IMG/VR virus record: IMGVR_UViG_3300042471_000170
Location: 1 to 25,653 of that record
Reading direction: 5' to 3' (one strand)
DNA length: 25,653 bases
DNA from: a virus
In this document: one piece after another, positions 4,517 through 21,973 of the stretch
Position numbering within the stretch: position 1 is the stretch's first letter
Layout: each line of letters begins with the position of its first letter
Notes under the pieces: generated by a model
What the model was told of the DNA's origin: nothing
The model's input: the letters and a program-made list of their open reading frames with translations, nothing else
Databases searched by the model: none
Made by a program: the position numbers and the translations under genes

Positions 4517-4870
4517 TTAGCGTGGGGGTGTAGGACGGTCAAGCATGGCGAGCAGTTCTGCCCACACCTTGGCGGGCATCACTGCGTACCAGTCGTCGAC
4601 ATCTTCTGTGCCGCGACGCTTGACGATGACGGCACCTGTCCATGCTCGGGCGTTGCTCATCTCACGCTCAAGCTCTTTCAGGTAGCCAGGTATGTCAATT
4701 TTCTTCTCGTTTTTTACTTCGATACAGACCCCTGGCATTCCGTCGATGTCGCCTCGGTCGTCAGTCCATCCGGCGCGGGACCGTTCGGCGTTCACCCAAC
4801 CGTATTTGCGTAACCATTTGGCGACGAGAAGTTCGGCGCGGTTGCCTTTCCGTTTATTTGGGTGAGCCAT
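4517..4870 (-). CDS. Holliday-junction-resolvase-like PD-(D/E)XK nuclease
   Basis: A 117-residue protein that matches the compact layout of archaeal-type Hjc and phage resolvase-like nucleases: an N-terminal KRKGNRAELLVAKWLRK helix with E13, then GDIDG with D41, then the CIEVKNEK strand with E51 and K53. These supply the catalytic E...D...ExK set. It would cleave branched DNA during recombination or before packaging. The ATG at 4870 overlaps the WhiB gene by 17 bases. An alternative is a general VRR-NUC-like or restriction-type nuclease; the small size favours the resolvase reading. Confidence 0.75.
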   Translation of the reverse strand: MAHPNKRKGNRAELLVAKWLRKYGWVNAERSRAGWTDDRGDIDGMPGVCIEVKNEKKIDIPGYLKELEREMSNARAWTGAVIVKRRGTEDVDDWYAVMPAKVWAELLAMLDRPTPPR

Positions 4871-5156
4871 AGAGTTGAATCCTACGACGCCTGCGTGCTT
4901 CCTTGCGGCGCTCCGAAGTGGTCATCCCACCCCACACACCGATTTCCTCCGCCTTGATGGCGTAGTCAAGGCAGTTCACACGCACAGGACATTTGTAGCA
5001 GTACGACTTGGCTTCGATGACGAGGCGTTTGACGCCTTCCTCAAAGAACACGTCGCCGGATACGCCGACGCACGCAGCCTGCTTGTACCACTTGGGTGCT
5101 CGCAGGACGAATGCGTTGTCTTCGTTCGTCCAGTTAGCGATTGGTTCTTGCGTCAC
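4854..5156 (-). CDS. whiB: WhiB-family transcriptional regulator
   Basis: A 100-residue WhiB-like protein, a family essentially confined to actinobacteria and their phages. Four conserved cysteines, C29, C53, C56 and C62, would hold a [4Fe-4S] cluster. They are followed by the signature GVWGGMT at 73-79 and a very basic C-terminus (RRKEARRRRR) that would bind DNA. Family members bind sigma-A and change transcription, and the mycobacteriophage TM4 homologue affects host septation and superinfection. The start is GTG at 5156, overlapping the previous gene by 23 bases with only a weak ribosome binding site, which suggests coupled translation. This gene is the clearest evidence for an actinobacterial host. 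Confidence 0.93.
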   Translation of the reverse strand: MTQEPIANWTNEDNAFVLRAPKWYKQAACVGVSGDVFFEEGVKRLVIEAKSYCYKCPVRVNCLDYAIKAEEIGVWGGMTTSERRKEARRRRRIQLYGSPK

Positions 5157-7797: not shown

Positions 7798-8293
7798 CGG
7801 CTTCCTGCTTACCTGCGGCGATAGCGGCGAACTTGTCAATGTATGCCTGAGCGTCGTCGGCGAACTTCGGGCTTATCTCAACATGTATCCAGTCGCCCGG
7901 CACACCCGAGATGGTCTTGGTCGTGTAGTCCTGCCAAGTGCCGCGGTCGCATCGCCACCCTCGACCGTGACCGTGCTTGCCTGGTGCGTAGTCGAGGATG
8001 CATTCAATGTGCAGACGCTTCCAGTTGGCGACCAGAAAATCCATCATCGCTTCAGCGTGTTTGCGTCCATCGGCTTTGCCGAGTTTGCCAACCTTGCGGT
8101 AGGAGAGGTCGACGGCACGCCCTGTTGCGTGAACGCTCAACGATTCTTTGCCGCGCATGTTACGCACAACCCAAGTCCCGTTGTTCCAGAGCGCGCCGTC
8201 AGAAAGTTTCGTGACCTGACGAACGAACTCTTCAAGGCCTGCCCGTTTGCCGTTGGATGCACCGTCTTTGGTGCCGGTGTACGGGCGAGTCAT
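7787..8293 (-). CDS. Endolysin, M15-type peptidase
   Basis: A 168-residue protein starting at the ATG at 8293; a longer frame would add a low-complexity arginine stretch overlapping the holin gene. Metal-ligand motifs of M15/VanY-type peptidases are present: SVHATGRAVDLSY with H55 and D62, and DWIHVEIS with H137 and the likely catalytic E139. Such enzymes cut peptide bonds in peptidoglycan cross-bridges at the end of infection. No signal peptide or separate wall-binding domain is seen, so it depends on a holin for access. The preceding holin-like gene ends four bases before this start. Confidence 0.82.
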   Translation of the reverse strand: MTRPYTGTKDGASNGKRAGLEEFVRQVTKLSDGALWNNGTWVVRNMRGKESLSVHATGRAVDLSYRKVGKLGKADGRKHAEAMMDFLVANWKRLHIECILDYAPGKHGHGRGWRCDRGTWQDYTTKTISGVPGDWIHVEISPKFADDAQAYIDKFAAIAAGKQEADVD

Positions 8294-8297
8294 AGCG

Positions 8298-8570
8298 CTA
8301 CTTCTTCTTCGTCGGCGCTTTGCCGAACGCTTCAGCAATCTCATCGCTCGTCAACTCTCCGTCAGTGGATGCGGCTGCCAGCTTCTGCACGACCTGAATC
8401 ACGGCCATAAACCCAGCCAACGCCGCAGCCTTACCGACACTGACGCCGAGCACCGCGCCACCCGTCACCGCAGGAAGGGCGTTGGCAAGGAAGAGGGAGA
8501 AGAGGCGTTGCCCTAAGTCTAAGAACTTGGCCATCGTCGGGTTGGATTTGATGTTCACGTCAGTTGTCAC
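8298..8570 (-). CDS. Holin-like membrane protein
   Basis: A 90-residue protein from a GTG at 8570 preceded by GGGAGAGAACA. It has two hydrophobic stretches at about 22-40 (LFSLFLANALPAVTGGAVL) and 42-62 (VSVGKAAALAGFMAVIQVVQK), then a hydrophilic tail with LTSDEIAEAF and terminal lysines. Small size, two helices, charged C-terminus and position immediately before the endolysin fit a phage holin that opens the membrane at a timed point. An internal ATG at residue 13 could give a second, shorter product. That is possible but unproven. Confidence 0.7.
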   Translation of the reverse strand: MTTDVNIKSNPTMAKFLDLGQRLFSLFLANALPAVTGGAVLGVSVGKAAALAGFMAVIQVVQKLAAASTDGELTSDEIAEAFGKAPTKKK

Positions 8571-8727
8571 TGTTCTCTCCCTGTGAGGTCAGCCACAAGT
8601 GTAGTGAAACCACTATCGCCGTAACCACAGAAGCACGAAGCAACGTAGAACCAGTCAATGTCAACAACACCATCACCGTGCCAGCCCACGTCCACACGTT
8701 CTCCACCAAGTATTCACGCCACTTCAT
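8560..8727 (-). CDS. Small two-span membrane protein of the lysis cassette (55 aa)
   Basis: This 55-residue frame begins at the ATG at 8727, sharing ATGA with the stop of the preceding gene, and follows CCAGGAGACGACG. It overlaps the holin-like start by 11 bases. The sequence is dominated by two hydrophobic runs, about residues 11-26 (VWTWAGTVMVLLTLTG) and 28-47 (TLLRASVVTAIVVSLHLWLT), with a polar end. Such small hydrophobic proteins next to holins may be holins or antiholins themselves. The coupling at both ends is strong evidence that it is translated. Confidence 0.65.
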   Translation of the reverse strand: MKWREYLVENVWTWAGTVMVLLTLTGSTLLRASVVTAIVVSLHLWLTSQGENSDN

Positions 8728-8963
8728 CGTCGTCTCCTGGTCGCTGGTGCGACCACCGTCAACAACACAACCGCGTTGACGGTCTTTCGTTGTTCTTCAG
8801 TTATGCGTGACCCGTCAGGCAGCCACGAGGCTTTGCATTCATACGCCCACTCCCAAGGTGGCTGCGTATCAACCTCACGGCATTCGAGCTCTTGCGCTCG
8901 TGCCGGGGATGCAAAAAAGACTAGAAGGAGGGCGGGAAGGAGGACGAATGCCTTACTCGGCAT
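8724..8963 (-). CDS. Small exported protein of the lysis cassette
   Basis: A 79-residue protein with a signal peptide (AFVLLPALLLVFFASPARA, probable cleavage before Q24). A short polar domain with two cysteines (C28 and C43) follows, then a hydrophobic C-terminal stretch (TVNAVVLLTVVAPA) ending in four arginines. It may therefore be exported and anchored at its C-terminus. Phages of Gram-positive hosts lack classical spanins, and a small exported protein here could aid cell-envelope disruption. The function is unknown. It overlaps the previous gene by 11 bases. Confidence 0.6.
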   Translation of the reverse strand: MPSKAFVLLPALLLVFFASPARAQELECREVDTQPPWEWAYECKASWLPDGSRITEEQRKTVNAVVLLTVVAPATRRRR

Positions 8964-9221: not shown

Positions 9222-10073
9222 TTAGACCCTGAACCGAACATAAACAATACCCGAACCGCCGTTGCCGCCGTTGCCGTTGTTGCCGCCGCCACCGCCACCG
9301 CCACCTTGATTTGCTGTTCCATTACTACCAGCAACATTTTGCGTATTGGAACCGTTTCCACCACCATTTGTTCCGCTTCCTGCAACGCCGCTATTGAGGT
9401 GATACGCACCGCCGCCACCGCCGCCACCTATCAGGGTTGATGCGCCGCCAATAAAACCGTTGATTTCAACACCTGCGCCACCATTGCCTGCCGTTGCTCC
9501 ACTTGTGTTGGCACCTGCACCACCGCTACCAGCGCCACCCGCCGCTGGTCTTCCAGCGTTTGCGCTTGCGTTTCCACCCGCGAAACCGATAGATGACCAA
9601 GTAGTTCCGCCACCAGTGTAGGTTCCATTGCCGCCTGCGCCACCGCCGCACAATCCCGCTAATCCATTTGCTTCTGAGGTTGCGCCGCCAGATGAACCGC
9701 CAATGCCAGTGTTATCGACACCAGAAAAGTTTCCAGCCCCACCCCACGTTTGAGTCGTTGAACCTGAGCCACCAGCACCAATCGTCACCGTCGCATTAGC
9801 ACTTAGGTACATGGTTTGTTGGATTTTTCCGCCACCTGCGCCACCGCCACCCATGTTGTAAGCCGCACCTGACCCGCCGCCAACAATGAAAACATCAAAC
9901 AGACCAGCCTTAGAAACAGTCAGGGTTCCTGATGCGGAGAATGTGAGAAGCGTGTAGTTGACACCGCTAACCGTCACGCTTGACGAACTACCACCTGTTG
10001 CTGTTCCGTAAGCCATCACAGGCACGGTGTCTGTTGTCTGCGATGAGACATAGCCAAGATAAGAACGAGTCAT
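9222..10073 (-). CDS. Glycine-rich adhesin-like virion protein, copy 2
   Basis: A 283-residue protein. The N-terminal 70 residues form a beta-rich head (LGYVSSQTTDTVPV, TLLTFSASGTLTVSKAGLFD, VFIVGGG). A long glycine-rich region with many GGGG and GGAG runs follows, ending in GGSGIVYVRFRV. The plan resembles the Gly-rich domain of phage tail adhesins, in which polyglycine helices can stack into a sandwich that displays variable loops. A receptor-binding role at the tail tip is inferred from the composition, the beta head and the position after the tail genes. It lies one base after a paralogue with the same head and the same C-terminal motif. Confidence 0.75.
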   Translation of the reverse strand: MTRSYLGYVSSQTTDTVPVMAYGTATGGSSSSVTVSGVNYTLLTFSASGTLTVSKAGLFDVFIVGGGSGAAYNMGGGGAGGGKIQQTMYLSANATVTIGAGGSGSTTQTWGGAGNFSGVDNTGIGGSSGGATSEANGLAGLCGGGAGGNGTYTGGGTTWSSIGFAGGNASANAGRPAAGGAGSGGAGANTSGATAGNGGAGVEINGFIGGASTLIGGGGGGGAYHLNSGVAGSGTNGGGNGSNTQNVAGSNGTANQGGGGGGGGNNGNGGNGGSGIVYVRFRV

Positions 10074-10074
10074 G

Positions 10075-10884
10075 TCAGTTAGTCCTCACTCGAACGATAA
10101 CGATGCCAGAACCGCCAGCCGCACCAGCAGTGTTGCCACCACCGCCACCGCCGCCTGTATTGGCTGAACCTGCTGTGCCTGTTGTCGTTGAGCCAGCACC
10201 ACCGCCACCTGTGCCACCAGCACCACCCGACGAAGTACCGCCGCCGCCGCCACCACCAGCACGAGTCGTTGCAGAGTTATTCAGTGAAGTAGAAGTTCCT
10301 GCGCCGCCAGCACCACCGTTGTTCGTCGTCGCATTTGTACCGACTGCTGATGCGCCGCCGCCGCCACCGCCGCCACCACTGATGCCCGTACCACCCGTGT
10401 TACCTTGACCAGAGATACCTGCGCCGCCGCCTAGACGACCACCGCCACCAGAACCGCCAGCCAAACCCACAGGGTCAGTGCTGTTAGAACTTGTACCGCC
10501 GCCGCCACCGACTGCGGTGTAAGAACCGATAAGCGAAGATGTGCCGTTGAAACCGAAACTTGTATCACCAGCACCGCCACTGCCGATAGTCACCGTCAAA
10601 GTGCCAGCAGGCAGATAAGCGTCAGTCACTTGTAGATGACCGCCAGCACCGCCGCCACCACGTTGAGAACCGCCACCACCGCCGCCAACGATGAGCAAAT
10701 CAGCAAGACCAGCACGAGTCACCGTCAAAGTACCTGACGCAGTAAAAGTCAGATACTTGTAGTCGATACTGCCCGAAGTGTAAGTACCCGTCGCCGTGTC
10801 AGAAAAGTTGGCGTTCGCCAGCGTAGAAACAGCCTGCGTCGTCAGCGACGACACATAACCGAGTTGCCGACGAGCCGTAGCCAT
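10075..10884 (-). CDS. Glycine-rich adhesin-like virion protein, copy 1
   Basis: A 269-residue paralogue of the next gene. It shares LGYVSSxTT near the start, YLTFTASGTLTVTRAGLAD, LLIVGGGGGG and the closing GGSGIVIVRVR. Between them lies a glycine-rich region with runs of up to eight glycines and short serine/threonine/asparagine insertions. The conserved N-terminus probably attaches to the tail, and the glycine-rich part probably forms the exposed adhesin. The two copies differ most in the inserts between glycine runs, as expected for receptor-binding variation. Function is inferred by analogy with glycine-rich phage adhesins. Confidence 0.75.
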   Translation of the reverse strand: MATARRQLGYVSSLTTQAVSTLANANFSDTATGTYTSGSIDYKYLTFTASGTLTVTRAGLADLLIVGGGGGGSQRGGGGAGGHLQVTDAYLPAGTLTVTIGSGGAGDTSFGFNGTSSLIGSYTAVGGGGGTSSNSTDPVGLAGGSGGGGRLGGGAGISGQGNTGGTGISGGGGGGGGASAVGTNATTNNGGAGGAGTSTSLNNSATTRAGGGGGGGTSSGGAGGTGGGGAGSTTTGTAGSANTGGGGGGGNTAGAAGGSGIVIVRVRTN

Positions 10885-16459: not shown

Positions 16460-16870
16460 CTAAGCGTACACCGTGACCTTGAAATCGACCGCCAGATACA
16501 GCGTGTCGTTGGCGTCAATGTTCGTGAGGTTCTCGGCGTTGGTGACGATGAGGTCGTCGCAGACTCCGCCGAGTGTTCGGTCTGATTCGATTGCGGCACG
16601 AAGCGACTTTGCTCCGTCCCAATTCATGTATTGGTCAAGTTGGTCTTGAGCGGTGCGCTCCGATGAACGATTGACGATGAGTGTGATGGTGAAGTTCATG
16701 ACGACGCCACCGGATGCCATGCCTGTCTGGTGATAGGTGACCGTGTCAAGGGTTGGGAATGCGAACGGCGGGTTCACCTGGTCAGGCTGGTAGTCGAAAG
16801 CTCGCAAACCAGAGATGCTGTTGATGCGGGCTTTGAGGCCGTCTTTGACTTGGCTGATTGTGGCTGGCAT
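16460..16870 (-). CDS. Tail terminator-like protein
   Basis: A 136-residue protein in the position of the tail terminator or completion protein, between the head-tail connector and the major tail protein. The pattern of an N-terminal helix (ISQVKDGLKARINSI), VNPPFAFPTLDTVTYHQT, a strand FTITLIVNRSSERTAQDQLD, a helix containing AKSLRAAIESD and a closing strand YLAVDFKVTVYA fits the gpU-like fold. It would cap the tail tube and join it to the head. The start overlaps the previous stop as TGATG. Confidence 0.75.
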   Translation of the reverse strand: MPATISQVKDGLKARINSISGLRAFDYQPDQVNPPFAFPTLDTVTYHQTGMASGGVVMNFTITLIVNRSSERTAQDQLDQYMNWDGAKSLRAAIESDRTLGGVCDDLIVTNAENLTNIDANDTLYLAVDFKVTVYA

Positions 16871-17499
16871 CAGGCAAACATCCGCATGCGTCGATACGGC
16901 TCAACCAACTGAGCCATGTCAGGGTCGAGGAATCGAGAGACGCGGATAGCGCCCAGGTCGCCGAAGCCTGCGACACCGAGCGGCGAATCGTAACGCTTGA
17001 AGATGCGTGAAGACTGGATGATGCACGCCTGCTTCACAGGCTCAGGCACACTTGCCCAACCCCACTTTGCCGTCACCTGCACCAACGCCTGCTCACCATA
17101 GTTGGCGTTCACGGTCGGGAACAGGTAGTTGCCGATGGCACGAATCTTGTCGTATGACCAAGTGAGGCCATCAAGCACACCGTTCAACGGTTCAAGTTGG
17201 TAGTCGGTGGTTTGCCAAGTGGTGTCAAAGTTTCCGTCGGCGAACGACGATGTCTTGAGGACGAAACTGTCGGTGGTGTAGAAGTCGTCGCAGTCCGTCC
17301 AGTATTCGTTGTTCGCTTGAAACACTCGTGGCGTCGCAGAGGAGACCGCCCAGAACTGGCGGTTGCAGTAGCCGTCAATCAGACGAGATGCGGCACCGAC
17401 ACAGTTCTCCAATAGGGCGTCGTCGACGGTGTCTGCCGTCCCGATACGGAGAGCAGCCTTGACTTCTGCGAGCGTGCAGTACCCGTTGGTGATGGCCAT
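16870..17499 (-). CDS. Head-tail connector (gp6-like adaptor)
   Basis: A 209-residue protein with the arrangement of gp6-like head-tail adaptors. The N-terminal region CTLAEVKAALRIGTADTVDD is followed by ENCVGAASRLIDGYCNRQFW, the classic helix pair. A beta region follows, then the C-terminal helix VPEPVKQACIIQSSRIFKRY and the tail MAQLVEPYRRMRMFA. It would form a ring below the portal. It starts 12 bases after the methyltransferase stop and is the first standard structural gene after the glycan cassette. Confidence 0.82.
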   Translation of the reverse strand: MAITNGYCTLAEVKAALRIGTADTVDDALLENCVGAASRLIDGYCNRQFWAVSSATPRVFQANNEYWTDCDDFYTTDSFVLKTSSFADGNFDTTWQTTDYQLEPLNGVLDGLTWSYDKIRAIGNYLFPTVNANYGEQALVQVTAKWGWASVPEPVKQACIIQSSRIFKRYDSPLGVAGFGDLGAIRVSRFLDPDMAQLVEPYRRMRMFA

Positions 17500-17511: not shown

Positions 17512-18189
17512 CTAGTCTCTGCGGCGAATCGCCCACTGATTACCGAACGTCAAAACCTCGCCATTCACCTCAGATGAGAACCGTTCAACGTCACGACGCA
17601 CCGCAACCCAATCCAAATCATCACCCAGCAACAGGCCACCGGCACGAACGACCGCCCAAGCCGTCCGCAACTCGATGAGAGTTTCACCCTCCTCATGCGC
17701 AGAATCCACATACACCACATCAGGACGAGGCACCACGTCACGCTGAACCAACCTGTCCAAATACCTCAACCCGACAATGCTTGTCGCCTGCATCGGCACA
17801 ATCACATCCGTGAACCCTGCCGCGACTACGTTCGCCAAGAACCTCTGCCGAATCGTCGGCGCACCATTCACCAACCTCAGAAACCTCCACCGGTTGTTCA
17901 TCGCCAAATCACGCTCCCAATCCCACATGTTGACGTCACCTGTGAAAGGGTCAATACACAACACGTCAACCCTCCGAGCGAGCCGCTTGGCCGTCTCAGC
18001 AACGAGCAGCGCCGACCCTCCCAGCATCGTCCCCGCCTCAACCCAGAACTTGCAATCCGTCTCAGCGAACGCCCACTCGACAACCTCTGCAGTTAGATGA
18101 GTATGTGGATACCAAGGGTCTGTTTCCGTTGCGTCACGGTACGGGTCCTGACCGAAGAACATCTCTGCCCTCAGACGGTCGCCAATCAT
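17512..18189 (-). CDS. Class I SAM-dependent methyltransferase (Methyltransf_24-like)
   Basis: The ATG at 18189 gives 225 residues. It is preferred to the GTG at 18195 because it overlaps the previous stop as ATGA and lies 8 bases from AAGGGA. The SAM-binding loop is FWVEAGTMLGGSALLVAE at about 48-65, followed by VLCIDPFTGD and then VVYVDSAHEEGE with D162 and H165. GGLLLGDDLDW is at about 184-194. This is the pattern of small-molecule and sugar methyltransferases of the Methyltransf_24 or cephalosporin-hydroxylase-like group, not of DNA methylases. As the last gene of the glycan cassette it may methylate the sugar added by the glycosyltransferases. The substrate is inferred from neighbours. 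Confidence 0.75.
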   Translation of the reverse strand: MIGDRLRAEMFFGQDPYRDATETDPWYPHTHLTAEVVEWAFAETDCKFWVEAGTMLGGSALLVAETAKRLARRVDVLCIDPFTGDVNMWDWERDLAMNNRWRFLRLVNGAPTIRQRFLANVVAAGFTDVIVPMQATSIVGLRYLDRLVQRDVVPRPDVVYVDSAHEEGETLIELRTAWAVVRAGGLLLGDDLDWVAVRRDVERFSSEVNGEVLTFGNQWAIRRRD

Positions 18190-18704
18190 CCCCACGTTCC
18201 CTTGAACTTGCGCAGATAGTCGTTCTCCAGAACCATGTTTATGCGGCCGTGATGCTCAACGAAGCCACGATTCATCGAGTCACGCAAATCAGGGAACACG
18301 ACTGGCACATCACCAGCGGATGCCGCATAGGTAGTAGTCCACTCAATCTCGGCACGAATCGAATCCCTTTGCGTCACCGGAGAATACAACTCCACCCGCG
18401 ACAGATGCTCGCGCGTGTAGATGCCCATGAACATCCCAAAGATGCGCGGGTCGTCCGTCACCGAAACTGAACCGGGATGCTCAAACATCTTGTCAAAGAA
18501 CGCTTGGTCTTTCACGACCACCGAATCATGCAGAAACAAGAACCTGTCAAACGTCGTGTTCTCGTACATCCATTTGATTTTGCCGAGTTCCCATGTTCCC
18601 GACTGACGCAAGACCAGCACCTCACGCTCGATGGAAGCCAGACACTCCTGCAACCACGCCTCACGACCAGGCGTAGAAGCCACCACCACAACGTCTAATC
18701 CCAC
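18186..18704 (-). CDS. Small GT-A-like glycosyltransferase or related protein
   Basis: The GTG at 18704 follows AAGGAGTTGTC and gives a 172-residue product; the longer frame to 18752 has no signal. The first strand (DVVVVASTPGREAWLQECLA) and FDRFLFLHDSVVVKD with D60 near a strand end resemble the nucleotide-binding half of a GT-A fold. HDS would stand where DxD motifs occur. It is shorter than typical GT2 enzymes and may be a minimal or partial transferase. It is coupled on both sides to other cassette genes. An alternative is a non-catalytic partner of the preceding transferase. Confidence 0.55.
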   Translation of the reverse strand: MGLDVVVVASTPGREAWLQECLASIEREVLVLRQSGTWELGKIKWMYENTTFDRFLFLHDSVVVKDQAFFDKMFEHPGSVSVTDDPRIFGMFMGIYTREHLSRVELYSPVTQRDSIRAEIEWTTTYAASAGDVPVVFPDLRDSMNRGFVEHHGRINMVLENDYLRKFKGTWG

Positions 18705-19348
18705 GACAACTCCTTGCGTCGAACCAAATCCCAATCCACCAGATTCTCCCACGGCTGATTCAATCTCGCATTGAACCGCTCAAGATTCGCCTGAAACGTG
18801 AGAGAGTTCCGTTGCTGAAACTTCTCACTTGATGCAAGAGTGCTTGAGTTGCGGTGGTTGATTGCGGCCGTTGACGGAACCACCTCAATCCCTGCCCGCT
18901 GCGCCCGCACCTCATAGTCATTGTCCTCAAAATACGCAGGGTGAAAACCCTCATGAAATAAGCCGATTCGCTCGACGACCTTTCCCCCAATCCAGACGCA
19001 CGACCAGTTCGGTTTGCCACCCAACACGATGTTGTCCTCTTTCGCCGCAGCAAAGAACTCGGCAACAGCACCCTCACCGAACTGCACATCATGGTTCACA
19101 ATCATCCACCCAGGCGAGAACGGCGTCGCCTTGATACCAAGATTCCACGAAGCAGCCACACCCAAGTTCGACGGCATACGCCACACGAACACATCCGACG
19201 CCTTATGCGTCCGAGGCATCCACTCAGAATTGCCATTGTCGATACAGATGAGATTGCCGATACGACCCTCAAACGAAAGCAGCATCGCATCAACACGCCA
19301 ATGCTCAGTGAGCACCGGAACTATCAGGACTGGGACGATTGGCACCAC
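18695..19348 (-). CDS. GT2-like glycosyltransferase
   Basis: A 217-residue protein with GT-A features: an N-terminal strand PIVPVLIVPVLTEHW, CIDNGNSE, the segment NLGVAASWNLGIKA at about 61-74, VNHDVQFGEGAV with NHD at 85-87 in the place of the metal-binding DxD, and YFEDNDYEVRAQRAG with the likely catalytic E141-D142. These are the GT2 motifs in their usual order. It would transfer a sugar from a nucleotide donor. The start is GTG at 19348 after GGAG, 25 bases inside the preceding gene. The sugar and acceptor are unknown. Confidence 0.8.
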   Translation of the reverse strand: MVPIVPVLIVPVLTEHWRVDAMLLSFEGRIGNLICIDNGNSEWMPRTHKASDVFVWRMPSNLGVAASWNLGIKATPFSPGWMIVNHDVQFGEGAVAEFFAAAKEDNIVLGGKPNWSCVWIGGKVVERIGLFHEGFHPAYFEDNDYEVRAQRAGIEVVPSTAAINHRNSSTLASSEKFQQRNSLTFQANLERFNARLNQPWENLVDWDLVRRKELSWD

Positions 19349-20625
19349 TCAACAATCTCCTTCATCGCCGGCTTCCAATGAGACTCATAGACCGTGTCCG
19401 CCTCATACTGCTTGGCAAACTCCACCGCCTTCTGCGATGTACCACGTCCCCGCTGATACGCCTGCTCCAACGCATTCACGATGGAAGCCACATTCGGGAT
19501 GACAAAGAACGCGCCCTGTAGCGGGTCCCACCACGGCTGACCCTCAACAACCCAACCATCACCCACAAGCTCAGGCTGAGCCGTGAAGTTAGAGACGATG
19601 ACGGGCGTACCGCAAGCCTGCGCCTCGATGACAGGGATACCGAAACCCTCACCCATACTGCACGCCAATAGCACATCGGCGTCCGAATACAGCGCAGCCA
19701 TCGCATGATGCGGCAACCCCATCCGGTACAGGTAAGGGTCAGCCCACTTGATTTTGTCTTCAGGAATACCGACAGCCAACGCCAACGACTTCAAGTCAAT
19801 GCCGCCCATCGACTTTGATGCCTCGGTGTGCATGTAGAGAACTGCGTCTGGATGCTTTGAGGCGAACATACTGAACGCCATGAAGTTCTCCGCAAACGAC
19901 TTCCGCGTCGGAGCCACCCCCTTATTGGCTGCGGTCATCATCACAACGAAACGGTCATCGTCCCAACCCATGATTTTGCGGCCATTCAACACCTGGTTTG
20001 CGTTATCGCGGATTTCTTTCGTCGGCTTGTAGACCGACTCAATGGCGTGAGGAACATACACGTTGCGAACACCAGACTTGTCCAACTCACCTTTGCCGAA
20101 CTTTGACATCGCAATCGGCATCACATTCGGACGCTTGCACCACTTCAACACATCAGGCGGAATCGGCGCATGGTCAATAGGAACCCACGACGCAATGTTC
20201 GGTACCTTCTCCAGATTCGGAGCCTGCAACACCCACACATCAAACAGAGTGATGATGAGTTTTGGCAAATCCGACGACTGCGTCCACTCCATCCAGTGTG
20301 CGACGATGATGTCGTCGCTGTAAGGGTTCAGTCCTCGCGGGTAGATTTTGACGCCGTTCCACGCCGACGTCGACCCTTCGAGGCCGTAGTTCGAGTGGAT
20401 TGCGATTTCGTGCCCGTCTTTGATGAGCCTTTGGACCGCTTGCTGGGTTTGTTGCCCGTAGCCCGTCCCGCACCACGGCGCGTTGGAGTACCAGAGCGCC
20501 CTGACCGGGTTCGAGGTTCGACGACTGACTCCTCCCACAAGTGAGCCACGCCCGCCTGCAAGAGAAGGGTCGCCTCCAATTCCGGTAGGTCCACCGGCAC
20601 GTTTTTGATTACGACTCGCATTCAC
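19324..20625 (-). CDS. GT4-type (GT-B) glycosyltransferase
   Basis: A 433-residue protein beginning at a GTG after AAGGAGGTTTGC. Residues 1-40 are glycine/arginine-rich and probably disordered. The two-domain GT-B core follows: an N-terminal part with LWYSNAPWCGTGYGQQT and VAHWMEWTQ, and a C-terminal nucleotide-sugar domain with GEGFGIPVIEAQACGTPVIV. The latter carries the EX7E pair E326 and E334 typical of family GT4. It is the first gene of a four-gene cassette between the capsid gene and the connector genes. Possible acceptors are a virion protein, modified DNA or a host surface glycan. The location in the structural operon slightly favours a virion protein, by inference. Confidence 0.85.
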   Translation of the reverse strand: MNASRNQKRAGGPTGIGGDPSLAGGRGSLVGGVSRRTSNPVRALWYSNAPWCGTGYGQQTQQAVQRLIKDGHEIAIHSNYGLEGSTSAWNGVKIYPRGLNPYSDDIIVAHWMEWTQSSDLPKLIITLFDVWVLQAPNLEKVPNIASWVPIDHAPIPPDVLKWCKRPNVMPIAMSKFGKGELDKSGVRNVYVPHAIESVYKPTKEIRDNANQVLNGRKIMGWDDDRFVVMMTAANKGVAPTRKSFAENFMAFSMFASKHPDAVLYMHTEASKSMGGIDLKSLALAVGIPEDKIKWADPYLYRMGLPHHAMAALYSDADVLLACSMGEGFGIPVIEAQACGTPVIVSNFTAQPELVGDGWVVEGQPWWDPLQGAFFVIPNVASIVNALEQAYQRGRGTSQKAVEFAKQYEADTVYESHWKPAMKEIVEWCQSSQS

Positions 20626-20673
20626 GCAAACCTCCTTAGCAGGTTCGCGTCAACACTAGCCGATAAATGTCAA

Positions 20674-20713
20674 AGCGGCCCGACACCACCCTGCGTGTGG
20701 GTGTCGGGCCGCT
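20674..20713 (-). terminator. Strong hairpin terminator after the major capsid gene
   Basis: AGCGGCCCGACACC (20674-20687) and GGTGTCGGGCCGCT (20700-20713) form a perfect 14-bp stem with a 12-base loop. In the leftward transcript it is followed by TTTGACATTT, a short T-rich run. It lies in the 128-base gap 40 bases after the capsid stop. A weak or partial terminator here would set a high capsid level relative to downstream genes. A second, 5-bp stem (20723-20738) precedes it. Confidence 0.75.
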
Positions 20714-20753: not shown

Positions 20754-21935
20754 TCAGTTCGTGTTGTTGATGAAGTATTTGACGTGGCTGGTCTGCGGCA
20801 GGTTGCCGTCGACGCGCATCGTCGCACGGAACGTGACGAGGTCCGCATTGAATGCGTAGTCGTCGCTCCGGTCGAGACGGAGTCCGCCAGCCTGACGGAC
20901 GTAGTACGAGGGCAGATGCCCGAAGATGACCGACTTCTTCGCCGAGCCCTGCGAGTCCATTGCTGGGTTCTCGTAGACCGGGAAGTTCAGCAACTGGTCG
21001 TTGCCATCTGCCAGCGCGGGGCTGAAGATGTAGTAACCAGCGGTGTCCTTCAACTTGCGGACCGCACCGAGCGAGGCGGTGTTCATCATCCAGCCAACGC
21101 CGGGGAGACGACGCGCCGCACCGTCGAGGCTGTACGCCAGGTCGATGAGGTTGTCTGCGGTGAACAGGCCACCAGCGGTCGTGCCGAGCACGCCCGAACC
21201 AGCGGCGGCCACGATGCCCTTGGGCTTGTTCGTGCCGTTGCCTGTGGTGAGGTCTGCGTTGACGGCGTAGCCGATGGCGTTGCCGGTCTGCTCCGCGAGG
21301 AAGGAGAGGATGTCCACTCCCGAGTCCTCGATGAGTTCACGCGACAGTTGCACCAGGAACGAATACTTGTACGCGCTCAAGGTGATGAACTGGTTGAACC
21401 CTGGGTCGGACTCGCCGATTGCGGTGCCTTCGCCAGTGACCGTGCCGGTCGACCAGGATGCCTGCGACGGAATCTGGAGGTTCTCTCCGCCAGCCGTGCG
21501 CAGCACCGTCGAGGTCTCCAGCATTGGGCCGACAAGTCGGGCCTGCATGATGACCTGGTCGTAGAACGACGTCGGAACCGGTGCGCCCGTCGACGTCTTC
21601 ACAACGTCACGAGTCTCGAAGTTGAACGAACGAACTTCGCCGCGGGCCATCGAGCGGATGACGTCGGCATCGCTTGCCGCCGCCTTCGCCGCTGGACGAA
21701 CCTGGCCAGCGATTTCGCGGGTTGCCGCTTCAATCTTGGCCTCGCGCTCGGCATCAGCCTTCAAGGCTTCGATGCGAGCAGCGCGCTCGTTGAGTTCGGC
21801 GTTCATCTTCTGATAAGACGCCTCTTCTTCAGTGGTGAGGTCGCGCTTTTCGGATGCAGCCTTGTCGAGAAGGGCTTTGGCCGCTTCCCAAGCACGCTGA
21901 CGCGCCTCGACCTGTTGGTCGATGTATTGCTTCAT
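20754..21935 (-). CDS. Major capsid protein, HK97 fold
   Basis: A 393-residue protein. The ATG at 21935 lies 8 bases after GGAGG and is preferred to the in-frame GTG at 21950 that includes the ribosome binding site. Residues 1-90 are a charged coiled coil (for example RQRAWEAAKALLDKAASEKR), the delta domain that scaffolds assembly and is removed by the protease. The HK97-fold region follows, with PVPTSFYDQVIMQARLVGPM, LSAYKYSFLVQLSRELIEDS, GYAVNADLTTGNGTNKPKGI and the C-terminal FRATMRVDGNLP. It follows the prohead protease, the standard order. It has its own candidate promoter upstream and a terminator downstream. Confidence 0.95.
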   Translation of the reverse strand: MKQYIDQQVEARQRAWEAAKALLDKAASEKRDLTTEEEASYQKMNAELNERAARIEALKADAEREAKIEAATREIAGQVRPAAKAAASDADVIRSMARGEVRSFNFETRDVVKTSTGAPVPTSFYDQVIMQARLVGPMLETSTVLRTAGGENLQIPSQASWSTGTVTGEGTAIGESDPGFNQFITLSAYKYSFLVQLSRELIEDSGVDILSFLAEQTGNAIGYAVNADLTTGNGTNKPKGIVAAAGSGVLGTTAGGLFTADNLIDLAYSLDGAARRLPGVGWMMNTASLGAVRKLKDTAGYYIFSPALADGNDQLLNFPVYENPAMDSQGSAKKSVIFGHLPSYYVRQAGGLRLDRSDDYAFNADLVTFRATMRVDGNLPQTSHVKYFINNTN

Positions 21936-21973
21936 GATGTGTTCCTCCACGGAACTTGTTGGGGTCGCAGGGA

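Follow-up and report, generated by a model that had tools for sequence, protein, structure and literature searches.

Why should a phage keep genes for sugar-transferring and methylating enzymes among those for its head, and on what might these enzymes act? The question arises from one virus record in IMG/VR, 25,653 bases long (which we refer to as the window), from a phage of freshwater actinobacteria, in which four genes, all on the minus strand, separate the gene for an HK97-type major capsid protein upstream (20754..21950, minus strand; PF05065, 1.7e-57) from that for a gp6-like head-tail connector downstream (16870..17499, minus strand; PF05135, 2e-5; phrog_442, 2.8e-18). These neighbours confirm the location given in an earlier note on this DNA, as the gene junctions confirm the coupling by overlaps that it described: reading from capsid to connector, the first gene (GT4) overlaps the second (GT2) by 25 nt, the second overlaps that for a small GT-A-like protein by 10 nt, and this overlaps the methyltransferase gene by 10 nt, or by 4 nt (ATGA) if an ATG start is used. 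A fifth open reading frame (20328-20621, 97 aa) overlaps the start of the GT4 gene in another frame, and no sigma-70 promoter was found upstream of the cassette.

The families or folds that the note had proposed for the four products are supported. The GT4 product (19324..20625, minus strand) is a GT-B glycosyltransferase with an EX7E motif: it matches PF00534 (2e-14; 53.9 bits against a cut-off of 26.4), PF13692 and phrog_2170 (3.7e-36), its closest PDB match by sequence is chlorovirus B736L (3oy2), and the two glutamates of E-x7-E, E282 and E290 in the C-terminal domain, are invariant in an alignment of relatives. The product of GT2 (18695..19348, minus strand) matches phrog_29879 (2.4e-32) and nothing in a Pfam search; as modelled by AF2 (pLDDT 85.7) it has a GT-A fold, with 197 PDB matches at E<=0.001 (Foldseek best E 9e-8) that, among the matches listed, are GT-A type glycosyltransferases or synthases. 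The small protein of family C5 (18186..18704, minus strand) found no match in Pfam or PHROG, and its model (pLDDT 71.6, pTM 0.72) is GT-A-like at moderate confidence, the top Foldseek matches being GT-A enzymes (WrtF, TarS, glycogenin) at a TM of about 0.5. It has no DXD metal-binding motif: at the expected place stands HDS/QDT, in which the D is the sole invariant residue of the motif. Its gene probably starts at a conserved GTG (18704), because what the listed open reading frame (from 18752) adds upstream merely re-reads the end of GT2. Distant C5 relatives in other phages adjoin genes for TagD-like proteins, methyltransferases and glycosyltransferases. The last gene (17512..18195, minus strand; family C3) encodes an S-adenosylmethionine (SAM) methyltransferase of the Methyltransf_24 type (PF13578, 4.2e-11; 44.1 bits against a curated cut-off of 26.3), with a weak resemblance, below cut-off, to the rhamnosyl O-methyltransferase family RMNT_CmcI (PF04989, 9e-4). 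None of the four proteins has a clear transmembrane segment (maximum KD19 1.52).

Are the four genes a unit? The note had taken them for a discrete insertion, and comparison with related phages does not sustain this. Three scans of viral contigs having a GT4, a connector and a capsid gene (the records being metagenomic and for the most part fragmentary) yielded 69 distinct capsid-connector intervals, and these contain an essentially fixed core (GT4 in 69/69, GT2 in 67/69) followed by contents that vary: 17 payload types were distinguished in 66 genomes, their families, as clustered, including GT2-like, GT17, Methyltransf_24/11/25 and MptE-like proteins, a rare 2OG-Fe(II) oxygenase (3/66 genomes) and some that were unmatched. 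The window's own payload families, C3 and C5, are linked in 15 of the 66 intervals. On the GT4 tree the payload has changed at least 30 times (about 30, against 46 with shuffled labels). The sharpest case is a pair of genomes, L156 and L157, whose GT4 proteins are 99.7% identical and whose payloads are C5-C3 and C2-C7, respectively; with 97.7% DNA identity upstream, they differ solely between the GT2 stop and a point 17 nt before the connector gene. Pairwise DNA comparison gave these same two positions as the borders of exchange, the first of them lying instead at the GT4/GT2 junction where GT2 has been swapped too. Because payload types vary and the borders are sharp, the last two genes of the window are one of many cassettes in a fixed slot. 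At the DNA level a search of the phage collection for homologues gave a single 58-nt match.

Nor does the cassette as a whole appear to be a recent gain, an idea that we rejected on finding the GT4-GT2 pair also in a second clade, whose capsid protein is only about 33% identical. This clade, found by querying with the divergent capsid of the phage L063, keeps the order capsid-GT4-GT2-payload-connector. The same query gave a few phages with GT4 alone, and in more distant phages without GT4 other small genes lie between capsid and connector. The slot is, moreover, already annotated in two phages, so that the earlier description of the location as unusual was only half right. In the Pontimonas phage phiPsal1 (MG835450), which has a region ordered MCP-GT4-MTase-GT2-neck, GT4 and GT2 are respectively 44% and 42% identical to the window's and occupy the same slot; the methyltransferase matches payload family C10 (6e-71) but, unlike the arrangement in the window, lies on the opposite strand between GT4 and GT2. 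The Microcystis phage Mae-JY09 (PP395641) has in its head operon a GT4 39% identical to the window's, between the genes for the major capsid protein and the head-tail adaptor, although its host is a cyanobacterium and its other neighbours differ. For the window's lineage the hosts are most likely actinobacteria, as WhiB is encoded in 15 of 16 records (the window included); a host search among genome contigs gave only two MAG matches, which were not informative.

The start of GT4 most probably holds a second gene. Each of the 82 distinct GT4 genes in the window's clade has, 4 or 7 nt downstream of its own start (GTG or ATG), an ATG in the +1 frame. In the window this start region (20619..20643, minus strand), conserved in relatives, comprises CCTGC (20639-20643), the Shine-Dalgarno sequence (SD) AAGGAGG (20631-20637), the GT4 GTG (20623-20625) and the ATG of the small frame (20619-20621). 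The open reading frame is the 97-aa one mentioned above, and its conserved part covers about 39 codons (20505..20621, minus strand), with a conserved peptide that in the window begins MRVVIKNVPVDLPELEATLLLQAGVAHLWEESVVEPR; this DNA encodes residues 1 to about 41 of GT4, a variable extension of the enzyme. When substitutions were placed on a tree built from GT4 codons 60 onward, changes in codons 3-42 numbered 197, 93 and 91 at GT4 positions 1, 2 and 3, i.e. they fell mostly at the wobble position of the +1 frame, and from codon 43 they shifted to the wobble position of GT4. An identical switch is seen in a separate 18-member clade with the 7-nt offset. At the same time the GT4 frame itself stays open: among 28 diverse sequences the overlap contains 0 stops in frame 0, where about 37 would be expected from codon usage, and 60 in the third frame; T occurs at 0/210 stop-capable positions and at 54/826 elsewhere (Fisher p 5e-6, which, the sequences being related, is indicative). 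The overlapping pair thus shows selection in both frames, and from the wobble switch, the open frame 0 and the conservation of both starts it is most likely that both are translated. Beyond codon 40 or so the +1 frame probably just follows GT4, unselected.

Two other ways of accounting for the stretch were considered. The GT4 extension might have been a misannotation, the enzyme starting internally; this was rejected for most of the 82 genes, as 66 have no in-frame ATG, GTG or TTG between the GT4 start and the domain and the other 16 (the window and its near relatives) have a single GTG, at codon 30, although the count does not test members with the 7-nt offset, in which the anchor string of the domain could not be located. 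Alternatively, the conserved +1 stretch (37 aa) might be no separate gene but be joined to GT4 by programmed frameshifting to give a fused enzyme, as could be suggested by the abruptness with which constraint on the one frame ends where that on GT4 begins. We rejected this, as no slippery site (a conserved X XXY YYZ heptamer) was found at the boundary; with frame 0 open throughout the stretch and having its own GTG or ATG start in 82/82 genes, we hold a fusion to be quite improbable. Overprinting looks specific to the window's clade, because the GT4 proteins of phiPsal1, L063 and the second clade have no N-terminal extension (phiPsal1 has no small nested frame either). Comparison of the small frame with Pfam and PHROGs gave nothing above noise. 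Small proteins encoded in the same position after the capsid gene in HK97-type actinophages without GT4 (e.g. that of L317, MRVRMNVAMSGTVDGEPWPPLGGDIDLPDVVAAKLVAAGHAEPV) share with the nested peptide, as judged by eye and with no profile support, an ending of the form VDLP..A..LL..G.AHL.E, but the nested peptide is shorter and shares its DNA with GT4.

Between the capsid stop and GT4 is the strong hairpin reported in the note (20674..20713, minus strand), consisting of a 5' arm (20700-20713), a loop (20688-20699, CACACGCAGGGT) and a 3' arm (20674-20687). The loop core, CGCAGGG (20689-20695), is complementary to the CCTGC at 20639-20643. Stem sequences are wholly different among clades, yet in 37 divergent sequences 479 of 481 pairs are formed (a count flattered by choosing the best-pairing register for each sequence), compared with 280 +/- 15 when arms are exchanged; in a fixed alignment of 24 sequences the covariation score is 0.58, against 0.19 when shuffled and at most 0.14 with slid partners. 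This stem, stem 1 of the structure considered here, is therefore supported by covariation. The loop core is identical in 36/37 sequences, and its complement, CCTGCG or CCTGC, lies directly before the SD in 34/37 (4% in shuffles); the exception, L176, has lost both. The second stem would be complementary in most sequences but is invariant, so that there are no two-sided changes and no covariation. With a loop 1 of 3-6 nt and a loop 2 of 0-1 nt, the geometry fits an H-type pseudoknot, for which the hairpin and CCTGCG are a candidate. Scanning all viral contigs for the exact pattern yielded 110 newly fetched loci, all at capsid-GT4 junctions where the context was readable, and an Rfam search gave no family (and one chance miRNA match). 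H-type pseudoknots occur in phage leaders, as in that of T4 gene 32, where a loop is paired downstream near the translation start. The candidate here has in common with it a stem and a putative downstream loop pairing near a start, but is unrelated in sequence, and its proposed stem 2 is directly before the SD.

Might the hairpin be a mere intrinsic terminator that lowers transcription past the capsid gene? The note had suggested that the genes behind it are transcribed by read-through. The stem is followed in the window by TTGACATTTA, some relatives have T-rich tails there, and at the same place hairpins of the ordinary terminator-like kind are seen in phiPsal1 (which lacks the CGCAGGG hairpin) and in the second clade. 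Many members, however, have no T tract, the loop is invariant though the stem around it changes, and its conserved complement stands ahead of the SD. In L059 and L060 a separate terminator-like hairpin is found upstream and the CGCAGGG hairpin follows, which suggests that the latter is more than a terminator. (Our scan for intrinsic terminators admits loops of 3-8 nt only, so it cannot detect the CGCAGGG hairpin.) A terminator and nothing else seems to us an unlikely description, though one that keeps appreciable weight.

We turn to what the enzymes might modify. The proximity of capsid and glycosyltransferase genes does not by itself prove the acceptor, even though a phage-encoded glycosyltransferase accompanies the structural genes in every one of the 69 intervals and in the second clade too. 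Mycobacteriophages (Che8 and others) likewise encode glycosyltransferases, and glycans are reported on their tail tube and capsid (Freeman et al., 2023, as cited in PMC11256854 and PMC12619734); in the F1 phage Maravista the genes are near the genome end (PMC11256854), and the excerpts of these papers describe neither a payload slot open to exchange nor a nested gene or a conserved hairpin. The enzymes could instead have the host envelope as their target (teichoic acid or glycans of the cell wall), bringing about superinfection exclusion or receptor masking, with the late operon just a site of expression. Such a role has been proposed for aquatic actinophages (PMC10202952), the models of the small protein and of GT2 have TarS/TarP and other wall-polymer glycosyltransferases among their many matches, and one distant C5 relative adjoins a TagD-like cytidylyltransferase. 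No membrane flippase or GtrA-like partner was found, however, the four proteins lack clear transmembrane segments, and no tyrosine integrase was detected in 14 records (the lineage is probably lytic); the absence of integrase and membrane partner disfavours host-surface conversion. The same GT4 slot, moreover, occurs in phages of both actinobacteria and cyanobacteria, and by the time late genes are expressed exclusion would be of little value. We consider the envelope a rather improbable target.

Phage DNA is a third conceivable acceptor, glycosylation of hypermodified bases giving protection from nucleases: cascades of phage glycosyltransferases acting on modified DNA are known, in so far as the study is cited in PMC12619734 (Pyle et al., 2024), and the rare oxygenase payload (C11) might be seen in this light. 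But no thymidylate synthase/dNMP hydroxymethylase homologue (PF00303) was found in the 14 records of 25-34 kb (which may be incomplete), the genes are located in the head operon, and the oxygenase is confined to its three genomes; a role in DNA modification is thus very improbable. Taken with the mycobacteriophage precedent, the missing integrase, membrane partners and thymidylate synthase favour a virion acceptor, as does the persistence of the head-region slot though host phyla differ, and the role in virion glycosylation suggested in the note accordingly seems plausible from the genes.

The explanation that we think best, with rather more confidence than doubt, is that this is a modular virion-glycan locus with a compact leader, set in the late structural operon; its acceptor, the order of reactions, the pseudoknot, the regulation and the function of the small protein are what we infer. 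The fixed GT4-GT2 pair would start and then extend a short glycan, and the exchangeable payload (here the GT-A-like protein and the O-methyltransferase) would set the outer sugar and methyl cap, the likeliest acceptor being a virion protein encoded in this operon, whether of capsid, connector or tail. A stretch of about 120 nt would be read in both frames, giving the small post-capsid protein in one and the N-terminus of GT4 in the other, with a single ribosome-binding site serving two start codons that lie 4-7 nt apart. Beside that site the CGCAGGG loop may fold onto CCTGCG, and the pseudoknot leader would probably tune the amounts of the small protein and GT4 relative to capsid. More tentatively, and falling somewhat short of an even chance in our judgement, the whole might be a serotype-like virion glycan switched by cassettes, together with a compact expression device of a kind not previously described, in which an RNA pseudoknot, its stem free to change and its loop invariant, gates one ribosome-binding site for two frames and so sets the ratio of small head protein to GT4, both made from overlapping codons.

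While the glycosyltransferase slot as such is already known from single annotated genomes, the literature searched seems to contain no description of the sharply bordered exchange of payloads, of the nested gene or of the RNA element, and nothing was found in it on a capsid-gene pseudoknot or on dual coding in a glycosyltransferase. The nested gene illustrates overprinting where two genes join, the statistics being clear in two clades, and in the hairpin we have a candidate for a new RNA element, one missed by annotation pipelines and by Rfam. If the outer glycan on the virions of these freshwater actinophages is indeed swapped by cassettes, then their particles would come in something resembling serotypes, and it would become testable what selects for them, be it protist grazing, host receptors or decoys.

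Upstream of GT4, one of the core glycosyltransferase genes between capsid and connector, lies a hairpin (window 20674-20713, - strand) with a covarying stem and an invariant CGCAGGG loop, for which no match was found in Rfam. In the window, this loop is complementary to the CCTGC directly before the Shine-Dalgarno sequence of GT4. The start of GT4 is overlapped in the +1 frame by a small ORF (window 20328-20621, - strand) that is kept in 82 of 82 relatives.

Relatives also show variant arrangements of GT4 and of the payload (the exchangeable genes behind GT2, the other core glycosyltransferase gene). In Pontimonas phage phiPsal1 (L002), a methyltransferase of payload family C10 is located between GT4 and GT2 (8237-8755), inverted with respect to its operon. 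A 605-codon open frame in contig L383 (7543-9358) contains GT4 and overlaps the start region of the connector gene, and a separate small ORF follows the capsid gene, ahead of this frame. The payload of L059 and L060 differs (families C17-C18-C19): it comprises glycosyltransferase-like proteins and, from a look at the sequence only, a putative NAD-dependent sugar epimerase-like protein. The small GT-A-like protein has distant relatives in two unrelated phage contigs (L410, 2503-3540; L413, 2512-5216), where they adjoin a TagD-like cytidylyltransferase and, in L413, also several glycosyltransferase-like and methyltransferase-like genes.

Two very glycine-rich, Ser/Thr-rich tail-region proteins (window 9222-10073 and 10075-10884, both - strand) would be further candidate glycan acceptors. 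The window encodes a WhiB-family regulator (4854-5156, - strand; PF02467, 2.7e-18), and WhiB was found in 15 of 16 related records, which argues for actinobacterial hosts.
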